64,000 bases of DNA, taken from positions 1,471,850 to 1,535,849 of the forward strand of contig NW_001865041.1 in assembly GCF_000002865.3 (NCBI RefSeq), given 5' to 3'. The notes below the pieces were generated by a model that saw only the letters and a list, made by a program, of their open reading frames with translations, had not been told where the DNA came from and made no database searches. Of this stretch, positions 12,350-16,023 are shown one piece after another. Both the position numbers and the translations under genes were made by a program. How positions within the stretch are numbered: position 1 is the stretch's first letter; the number at the start of each line of letters is the position of its first letter. This stretch comes from Monosiga brevicollis MX1. Taxonomy: Eukaryota; Opisthokonta; Choanoflagellata; Craspedida; Salpingoecidae.

Positions 12350-12399
12350 NNNNNNNNNNNNNNNNNNNNNNNNNNNNNNNNNNNNNNNNNNNNNNNNNN
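12350..12399. other. Assembly gap, 50 N
   Basis: Exactly 50 N between a poly-C run and homopolymer-rich sequence. The round length suggests a placeholder and not a measured gap. Confidence 0.98.
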
Positions 12400-12852: not shown

Positions 12853-15800
12853 ATGGCGGTGTGCGCACGGCTGGCCCTGATGGGGCTGGTCTTGCTCGTT
12901 CTGCCCTCTGTTGCGCCTGTGCATGCCAGCCACCAAGTGTCCTTCAGCAAGTGGCTCTTTGATCTACAGATTCCTCTACCTGCCGTCACGGTCATCAAGG
13001 GCGTCGATCTGACTGATGGTGTCTGCACCCACACTGTGATTGCCAACATCTCCACGGACGTCCAGGGCCTGGCCTACGGATTCGAGGGCTCGGGCATAAG
13101 TCTCAACTGTAGCCTCGCCTTCAAGGCTGAGGCCCTGCCTCGCTTCAACGAACGTGTCACCATGGTTGTTGATCACTCCATCCTCGGATTTGTCCTTCAA
13201 CTTGAGAAGGACGACCAGCAACGTATTACAAACCTCACTCTAGAACAGCCGACTGCGATCTTTGAGGTGTCCAACATGATTGTCGATGGGACTATCCCCA
13301 CGGGCGGCTTCTTCAACTCATCTATGATTCGCACCGCCATGGCTGACGTTCTTCAAGCTCAATTTCGCAAGCTTGTTCCCGACCTCGTTGATCACATGCT
13401 TGCTCCCCTCCTTCGCAACATTTCTTTCGCGCTCTACGCCCAAGGTCAAGCCGTTATGCATCGTCCTCCCCCGTGCCCCCATGAATCAGGTACGTGCCCT
13501 TTGACTTTTTTTCTTTTTGGTTTTTTTTTTTTTTTTTTGGTTTTTTTTTTTTGGTTTTTTTTTCCCTTGTACCATCTCAAAAAAAAATTTGCCTCGCCTC
13601 ACATCCCAAACCCCTGTGTCCCCCTCACTGCAGGCATGGCCGACCTGCGCACCTCACCCGTCATTCAGCTGGTCGAGTTTGTCAACTCCATTCTTTCTCT
13701 GAATGACACTGATAGCTTGCTTCTTGACGGTCTCGTGGACGCGCTCACCAACCACACGGGGCGTGTCGCCCTCGATCTCAACCTTAGCACCGTCCTCGAT
13801 CTCCCAGGCTTGGGTACCGTCGGTCTGGGCTTTCAAGATGTTGTTGTCGCAGGCCTCGACACGTGGAATTCGATTGAACTCTTCAATGTAACGAGTCCCT
13901 GTCAGCTGGAAACCACCTCCAATCTCGCAAACCTGAGCATCAATATTAGCCTGACCCTCGACATTCAGCTCGCCAACTCGAGCGATATCTTGCACGAGGA
14001 GTTTACGGTGGTCTTTGCCATGGATCATGGCACCATGGACCTCATCCTTGACCTTGATGTCAGCCAGGCCAAGACTGACGCCCTTCGCTCTCTGCAAATT
14101 TTTCAGCCCGGCTGCCTTGCTGAGGCTGTCGACTTTTTCGGCTTGACCTTCCTCAATCTCGACTTTCAACTTGACGACCTAGAACTCGTCCCTGCCGCCG
14201 GCACCCTCGAGCAAGACCTTGACCTTGCCCTCAACAATCTCATGCACCTGGTTGTCGTCAACTTTGACGACCTGGTACCGATGGCCCTCAACGTTCTCCT
14301 CAACGAAACTTTGGCCCCGATTAATAAGGCCATCAATCAGAGCTTGTCCAACCAAACCTGCACCCCTGCTCGAAGCACCGCTCCTCCGGGCACGAACATG
14401 ACCATCACCTACATTGCCGTCTCCACTGGCCTGGCCCTTGCCTTTGTCTTTGGTCTCTGGGTCTTCCACGCCAATGACAAGCACGCAAAGCGACTGAGCG
14501 CGTATTCCCTCAACAGTCCAGATGAATCCGCGCCCCTCCTGGAAGGTCGCAACCCCGCTCCTTGCCTGGCTGCCGAGCCTAGCGTGGGAACATGGTCTCG
14601 CTACCTCATCCCCATCACGCTGCTCGGCACCATTGCCCTTCTCATCAACTCGAATGCCAGCGCTGGTGCATCCGTCTACCCTTTTCTCATTATTGGCAAC
14701 GATCGCTACCGCTTCGATCCCACCTTTACTTTCAGCCTCATCAACACGGTGCACGATATGTGGCAGGCTCATGTGCGCCCCTTGTCTGTCGTCATCGCCC
14801 TCTTCTCTGGCGTTTGGCCCTACCTCAAGCTTGTGCTGATGCTGACGGCATGGATCATGCCCGTGCGTTGGCTCGGCGAGAGCTCACGTGAAACTCTCCT
14901 CCGCGTGCTCGATGCCCTTGGCAAGTGGTCCCTCATTGACACCTACGTCATGGTCATGATGCTTGTCGCCTTCCGCTTTCGGCTGCCACTGCTTCCCGCT
15001 GACATGGAAACGGAGAAGGACACCTCACTGGACATCTTTGTTCAGCCTGATGTTGGCCTCTACACCTTTGTTCTGGCCACGATCATCTCTCTCATTATGG
15101 GCCACATTATTTTACACATGCACCGCAAGGCAGCAGATCAACATCGTCAGCCTACCCCGGACCACCTCAAACGTTCCTTTGGCAACCACGTCTTTGTTCG
15201 TGACGATATAACCTACCGCTTCACTCGCTGCGGCTACTTTTCCATCCTCCTGCTCCTGTTGGCCACCATCGCTATTCTGCTCGTCGGCTCGGTCATGTAT
15301 GCTTTCAGCTTCAACTTTAAGGGCCTGGCTGCCGCGGGCTTGGACCTGGAGCATGACTTGATGGGTTATAATGACAGCTTCTCTTATCGAAACTACAGTC
15401 TTGGCACGCTAGGCACTGCCATTCCAGAGTCTTCCATCGAACCAAATTCTTTTCTCACTCGCATGCTGCAGGCTACCTTCTACATCTTTGCCATTGTCAT
15501 GCCTTGCTTGCACGTGCTGGTCATGATCACCGTCTGGGTAGTGCCGCTCTCCGTGAATGTGCAGGCTCGATGGTACACCATTGCCGAGGTCCTGAACGCG
15601 TGGTCGGCCCTCGACGTCTTTGTGGTCTCTATCCTTGCCGCCATTCTCCAGATTCAACGATTTGCTCTCTTTATCATTGGCGATTATTGCGATGGCATCA
15701 ACAAGATCATTCAGCAACTGCAGGATGAGGGCCAACTGCCCCACGATTACGAAGCCAAATGCTTTGATGTTATAGCCACCCTTGACAATGGTTGCTGGTT

Positions 15801-16023
15801 CTTGTTTAGCGCCATGCTCTTGTCCTTCTTTACGGCTGCCGTCGTTATGCCCCTCTGTCATCGAGCGCTCCAGGATCGTTTGCATTCAGAGAGATCAACG
15901 AAGTTGCACACCGTCAACTCCATGGGCCAGACCCCGAGCGAACCTCGCTCGTGTCAGTGCTTTGACATGCTTAGCATGGGCCGTTGGCTGGGCCTGGTTC
16001 AGATGGACGATGTCTTTGTGTAG
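12853..16023 (+). CDS. TULIP-like ectodomain fused to two PqiA-like membrane domains
   Basis: Two exons (12853-13489, 13634-16023) give 1008 residues. Residues 1-28 are a signal peptide. Residues about 30-460 are a secreted, Asn-glycosylation-rich region with openings like IPLPAVTVIKGVDLTDGVC, which resembles the paired barrels of TULIP (BPI/LBP) lipid-binding proteins. A first helix at about 468-492 is followed by two four-helix blocks: 536-710, with the motif LDALGKWSLIDTYVMVM, and 747-955, with LNAWSALDVFVVSIL. The Trp-Ser-x-x-Asp-x-(Phe/Tyr)-Val pattern after a Pro-Lys helix is typical of bacterial PqiA. Known: PqiA works with the MCE protein PqiB in lipid transport between membranes. Inferred: a one-chain lipid handler at the plasma or an internal membrane. 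The zinc-ribbon cysteines of PqiA are not obvious. I chose the ATG at 12853 because the signal peptide follows directly; the same frame is open upstream. Confidence 0.8.
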   Translation: MAVCARLALMGLVLLVLPSVAPVHASHQVSFSKWLFDLQIPLPAVTVIKGVDLTDGVCTHTVIANISTDVQGLAYGFEGSGISLNCSLAFKAEALPRFNERVTMVVDHSILGFVLQLEKDDQQRITNLTLEQPTAIFEVSNMIVDGTIPTGGFFNSSMIRTAMADVLQAQFRKLVPDLVDHMLAPLLRNISFALYAQGQAVMHRPPPCPHESGTCPLTFFLFGFFFFFLVFFFWFFFPLYHLKKKFASPHIPNPCVPLTAGMADLRTSPVIQLVEFVNSILSLNDTDSLLLDGLVDALTNHTGRVALDLNLSTVLDLPGLGTVGLGFQDVVVAGLDTWNSIELFNVTSPCQLETTSNLANLSINISLTLDIQLANSSDILHEEFTVVFAMDHGTMDLILDLDVSQAKTDALRSLQIFQPGCLAEAVDFFGLTFLNLDFQLDDLELVPAAGTLEQDLDLALNNLMHLVVVNFDDLVPMALNVLLNETLAPINKAINQSLSNQTCTPARSTAPPGTNMTITYIAVSTGLALAFVFGLWVFHANDKHAKRLSAYSLNSPDESAPLLEGRNPAPCLAAEPSVGTWSRYLIPITLLGTIALLINSNASAGASVYPFLIIGNDRYRFDPTFTFSLINTVHDMWQAHVRPLSVVIALFSGVWPYLKLVLMLTAWIMPVRWLGESSRETLLRVLDALGKWSLIDTYVMVMMLVAFRFRLPLLPADMETEKDTSLDIFVQPDVGLYTFVLATIISLIMGHIILHMHRKAADQHRQPTPDHLKRSFGNHVFVRDDITYRFTRCGYFSILLLLLATIAILLVGSVMYAFSFNFKGLAAAGLDLEHDLMGYNDSFSYRNYSLGTLGTAIPESSIEPNSFLTRMLQATFYIFAIVMPCLHVLVMITVWVVPLSVNVQARWYTIAEVLNAWSALDVFVVSILAAILQIQRFALFIIGDYCDGINKIIQQLQDEGQLPHDYEAKCFDVIATLDNGCWFLFSAMLLSFFTAAVVMPLCHRALQDRLHSERSTKLHTVNSMGQTPSEPRSCQCFDMLSMGRWLGLVQMDDVFV

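Follow-up and report, generated by a model that had tools for sequence, protein, structure and literature searches.

A Monosiga brevicollis gene that appears to join a TULIP-type ectodomain to tandem PqiA/LetA-type membrane modules

Proteins comparable to the one described here are known from both bacteria and eukaryotes. The bacterial counterparts are Escherichia coli PqiA, of the PqiABC system, and LetA (YebS), of the LetAB system; to our knowledge, studies of transporters of this type have dealt only with those paired with MCE tunnels. According to a passage of PMC10897342, PqiA, if it is a transporter, would be passive or would draw on an unknown ATPase or on the proton-motive force. Among eukaryotes, a 2017 review of TULIP proteins (PMC5507252) states, in a passage of two or three sentences, that some protist and amoebal proteins with an N-terminal CETP/BPI (TULIP) domain carry a C-terminal PqiA domain, and that the two domains of such fusion proteins may share ligands. 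A gene with this domain order lies on the plus strand of a 64,000-nucleotide stretch of the choanoflagellate Monosiga brevicollis MX1 genome (contig NW_001865041.1, positions 1,471,850 to 1,535,849; hereafter the window). An earlier note on the window had suggested an undescribed lipid import/export system; because both the domain pairing and the same-ligand idea already stand in that passage of the review, the word has to be given up, and the gene joins a known, apparently unstudied kind.

We read the encoded protein as a lipid carrier and a membrane transporter in a single chain, with the carrier barrels on the outer or organelle-lumen side, and put the probability of this reading at roughly 0.55. 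Along the chain, a signal peptide is followed by two TULIP barrels, an anchor helix (TM0), a predicted cytosolic linker and two tandem PqiA modules (Table 1). Within the literature searched, PqiA and TULIP were mentioned together solely in PMC5507252, and PqiA and BPI, besides the review, in a paper on a paraquat-degrading bacterium; no functional study of TULIP-PqiA fusions was found in this literature, most subscription papers and bioRxiv preprints being outside its coverage. To the review, the present analysis adds one concrete gene with predicted structures, a match of its tandem modules to the solved LetA, and invariant residues. New beyond its passages are the extra barrels found in relatives, the absence of CxxC and of an MCE match, the conservation of a Lys, an Asp and a His, and a dileucine enrichment in the linker. 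The extra barrels and the dileucine motif are unmentioned in the review's passages on repeats, multimers and tandem arrangements (12 of 13 places), and no literature search was aimed at either.

Assignment of the ectodomain to the TULIP superfamily draws on family profiles, Pfam matches of relatives and predicted structure rather than on the protein's own Pfam search: the window protein alone matched no TULIP Pfam model (PF01273 included) at E<=10 and, with phmmer, no PDB chain. The family profile matched human BPI (1bp1) with E 8.3e-16 over profile positions 19-193 and LBP with E 1.5e-10, and PF01273 was found in 9 of 39 chosen relatives. In the predicted structure of the window protein, the ectodomain matches LBP, BPI and CETP, with both the N and the C barrel folds present, and a modelled homologue agrees in matching TULIP folds again; the structural comparison thus upholds the TULIP-like ectodomain that had been proposed from the letters. 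The barrels may bind lipids. Two barrels in N-C order are shared with BPI, LBP and CETP, whereas their relative placement differs in the models. BPI, LBP and CETP also differ in being secreted without a membrane domain, as passages of PMC5507252 describe for most CETP/BPI proteins.

The membrane part was assigned by Pfam, conservation within the family and a predicted match to LetA. PF04403 (PqiA) matched the window protein in two stretches with 52.9 bits (E 4.9e-14; cut-off 23.8 bits), and the two matches in the genome correspond to the halves of this single gene; all 39 relatives scanned matched the model at E<=0.01. The second module is related to the first by profile (probability 93.5%, E 2.3e-7). 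The predicted helices match E. coli LetA (PDB 9n8w), a solved PqiA relative, across both modules, so that the tandem four-helix LetA fold was found and the proposed likeness of the helices to PqiA is borne out. LetA is absent from the best 50 rows listed by Foldseek for the window model and is the top row for the modelled homologue. The PqiA signature reported for both membrane blocks stands as far as its quoted motifs are concerned; the Pro-Lys helix named with them is present in block 1 (WPYLK), and block 2 has Pro-x-x-His instead (VMPCLHVLVM).

Residue conservation was counted over 150 eukaryotic sequences, a redundant set (99 at 60% identity), for chosen residue types present in at least 90%. 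Trp607, Lys611, Pro622, Lys643, Asp648 and Trp869 were invariant. Lys611, Asp648 and the near-invariant His703 occupy positions predicted to be intramembrane. Lys611 and Asp648 align with a Lys and an Asp in the second, C-terminal module of E. coli PqiA, which shares PF04403 with the window protein, and in two Planctomycetota proteins described below; for E. coli LetA the alignment covered module 2 alone, and the His703 column has no aligned bacterial residue.

Several differences from the bacterial systems concern the partner and the origin of the core. E. coli LetA has four CxxC pairs and E. coli PqiA five, which we take to be zinc ribbons, and LetA works with an MCE partner; in contrast, the spliced window protein has no CxxC, and an exon-by-exon search of its own genome, which is possibly incomplete, gave no match to the MCE domain (PF02470) at E<=10, the control for this search being positive in 4 of 14 genomes. 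Compared with E. coli PqiA, the window protein has a fused TULIP head, and a built-in carrier that replaces PqiB would fit the absence of an MCE match. When bacterial and archaeal genomes were scanned for peptides that the eukaryotic core conserves, two loci came up, both in metagenome-assembled genomes (MAGs) of Planctomycetota (L007:3857-4855 and L008:3842-4849); their products are tandem PqiA proteins 332 and 335 residues long. Like the window protein these are free of CxxC, and unlike it they have no ectodomain; no MCE gene was recognised by eye among the open reading frames (ORFs) listed beside the two loci. A hidden Markov model (HMM) of the eukaryotic core scored 56.5 bits for L007 and 42.9 for L008 versus 26.7 for E. 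coli PqiA and 26.3 for LetA, the four bacterial sequences tested, a lead that is partly by choice because both loci had been found with peptides of that core; four reversed controls all scored below 0. These comparisons suggest rather than show descent from a bacterial PqiA free of zinc ribbons.

Relatives were collected with residues 500-1008 as query among 7994 candidates of 0.55-1.75 times 1008 residues, and the best 120 of 153 matches were used; a second search, which started from the core of a long relative and scored 7993 candidates, listed 38 matches and contributed 29 further proteins, for 149 in total (150 with the window protein). Three alignments, A1 (61 rows), A2 (39) and A3 (78, one identifier twice), were hand-picked from the best 120 of 153. 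Among the matches listed were Balamuthia, Pelomyxa, Histomonas, Nitzschia, Gymnochlora and Proboscia (the last two by taxids), together with records named 'Opistho-2' and 'Ochromo...'. At least one TULIP barrel was detected by family HMMs in 93 of 99 representatives (60% identity, window protein included), a proportion that does not exclude many TULIP-free relatives because the length range of the search shut out eukaryotic PqiA cores that stand alone (about 450 residues). Rows of A1 (54, 50 and 60) served to build the barrel HMMs and therefore match by construction; no reversed sequence matched at E<0.01.

At least two C-type barrels were counted, under the analyst's own merging rule on which barrel counts hinge, in 27 of the 99 representatives, only one of which belongs to A1, and among all sequences in 30 of 150 at E<0.001 or 31 of 149 at E<0.01. 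Two N and two C barrels were counted in P0102; P0122 carries five in all, two of the N and three of the C type, and P0013 also has extra barrels. Two to five barrels on one PqiA core were seen. In P0129 (2284 residues), about 1740 residues precede the PqiA core and no barrel copy passes the length rule; fragments match the ectodomain HMM at 501-566 (E 0.00056) and 1305-1470 (E 2.6e-7), and by these matches the protein likely carries a long, divergent TULIP array. No barrel was detectable by family HMM in P0146, P0148 and P0149, the last of which is labelled Batrachochytrium; in P0149 the N-terminal stretch of roughly 240 residues resembles, on visual inspection, a small membrane domain of several helices and gave no Pfam match above cut-off. 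In addition, one record labelled 'archaeon' (P0097) holds a eukaryote-type TULIP-PqiA protein and is perhaps a mislabelled eukaryotic MAG.

The topology, transport step and location that we infer for the single-chain carrier and transporter would be as follows. The signal peptide would place the two barrels on the outer or lumenal side, the same side on which LetA meets the MCE tunnel LetB, and TM0 would lead through the cytosolic linker to the two four-helix modules, giving nine membrane helices in total. The barrels would collect or deliver single lipids and pass each to or from the PqiA core, which would put lipids into the membrane or take them out, so that one chain would cover a job that is split in bacteria between LetA and LetB or PqiA and PqiB. 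The protein may reside at the plasma membrane, the endolysosome or both, with an acidic-dileucine motif of the linker, ESAPLL, as a sorting signal. Acidic-dileucine motifs bind clathrin adaptors in eukaryotes, so that endolysosomal cycling of this protein is a fair prediction from its sequence. The pattern [DE]xxxL[LI] occurs in 32 of 98 non-redundant linkers (150 sequences, three without a linker dropped, and the remaining 147 reduced at 60% identity), versus a mean of 7.2 and a maximum of 18 in 2000 shuffles, and in 6 of 83 C-terminal tails versus 7.4 expected; an earlier count over 61 partly redundant rows gave 25 versus 5.2 expected.

As for direction, we favour uptake, in which lipids would come from digested or environmental material. 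It is also conceivable, though in our view improbable, that the protein exports: the PqiA core would then extract membrane lipid and load the barrels, supplying the cell surface, a coat or a partner membrane. Export would agree with the description of the Pqi pathway, in the abstract of PMC10897342, as a putative phospholipid transport system, and a soluble acceptor or donor could come from another BPI-like gene of the genome. The present data, however, fix no direction, and the dileucine motif would hint at cycling through endolysosomes, a setting in which uptake of lipids is more natural. The other BPI-like gene (L003:1501-1950) encodes an N-domain that scores 47.1 bits, above the PF01273 cut-off, and may belong to a soluble partner.

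We consider it similarly unlikely that the protein is a receptor or tether, whose TULIP head would sense bacterial lipids such as lipopolysaccharide (LPS) and whose PqiA part would be merely an anchor or signalling module. BPI and LBP bind LPS, and P0083 (Pelomyxa) has leucine-rich repeats ahead of its TULIP (298-746) and PqiA regions; however, a mere anchor would not need a Lys and an Asp kept in 150 of 150 sequences and shared with E. coli PqiA and both Planctomycetota proteins. A wrong gene model or a chimeric assembly fusing two genes is hardly credible: the ectodomain is interrupted by an intron, and about 450 bases upstream of the gene there is a run of 50 N, yet the join between TULIP-C and PqiA falls inside exon 2, and the same order recurs in proteins with transcript-assembly names (P0002, P0006) and in contigs of several sources.

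A wider form of the single-chain reading, which is rather doubtful at present, would be a eukaryotic lipid machine, shared by several distant protist groups, that sits in the endolysosomal or food-vacuole membrane. In such a machine, the Lys-Asp pair and the near-invariant His of the fourth helix would link the movement of lipids to the proton gradient of the lumen, and its reach would be set by the number of TULIP barrels per core, as the number of MCE rings sets the length of the bacterial tunnel. In one purifiable protein, a natural fusion with a TULIP carrier would allow a test of whether the membrane core moves lipids in general and can work with unrelated carriers, and it could bear on lipid uptake or movement in bacteria-eating protists. 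The TULIP-PqiA kind is now easier to put to the test, given its arrays of extra barrels, the conserved Lys, Asp and His, the sorting motif and the lack of an MCE match.

Table 1. Features of the TULIP-PqiA gene and its product; window positions, with protein features as predicted
Feature	Window positions	Strand	Remarks
Exon 1	12853..13489	+	Residues 1-212 and first base of codon 213
Intron	13490..13633	+	144 nt, GT..AG, T-rich tracts; read from sequence
Exon 2	13634..16023	+	Remainder of codon 213 through residue 1008, plus stop
Signal peptide	12853..12927	+	About residues 1-25, end judged by eye; hydropathy peak 2-20; model helix 2-19
TULIP-N barrel	12940..13449	+	About residues 30-199; family profile to BPI; predicted fold matches LBP, BPI, CETP
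TULIP-C barrel	13645..14373	+	About residues 217-459
Anchor helix TM0	14410..14466	+	Residues 472-490; hydropathy 1.99; helix in predicted model
Acidic-dileucine motif ESAPLL	14524..14541	+	Residues 510-515; predicted cytosolic linker between TM0 and module 1
PqiA/LetA-type module 1	14590..15141	+	About residues 532-715; four predicted helices; PF04403; LetA match
Lys611	14827..14829	+	Second predicted helix, module 1; 150/150
Asp648 of GKWSLID	14938..14940	+	Third predicted helix, module 1; 150/150
His703	15103..15105	+	Fourth predicted helix, module 1; 149/150
PqiA/LetA-type module 2	15226..15882	+	About residues 744-962; four predicted helices; second PF04403 match; LetA match
Cys898 and Cys922 pair	15688..15762	+	Predicted exoplasmic loop of module 2; 147/149 and 148/149

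The ORF runs from the ATG at 12853 to the stop ending at 16023 and, read unspliced, encodes 1056 residues; since the length of the intron is divisible by three, the frame stays open across it. Removal of 13490-13633 yields exactly 1008 residues, in agreement with the single protein of that length that had been reported, and the segment is best read, from its sequence, as an intron. In the A1 alignment, none of 60 relatives has residues opposite unspliced positions 209-241, and of the 48 intron-coded residues (213-260) the last third (244-260) has aligned residues from 35-53 of 60 relatives, so that the relatives back the intron only partly. Nineteen N-glycosylation sequons are present in the protein, 16 of them before residue 470 and the rest at 553, 792 and 799; read from the model helices, all would be exoplasmic or, for 553, at the outer end of a helix. 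The N gap upstream of the gene (window 12350-12399) has homopolymer-rich flanks that resemble distorted copies of each other, and it is probably an assembly flaw. Elsewhere in the window, two ORFs at 207-1271 and 1796-2878, with four and three TIG domain stretches, respectively, are perhaps parts of one large surface protein.
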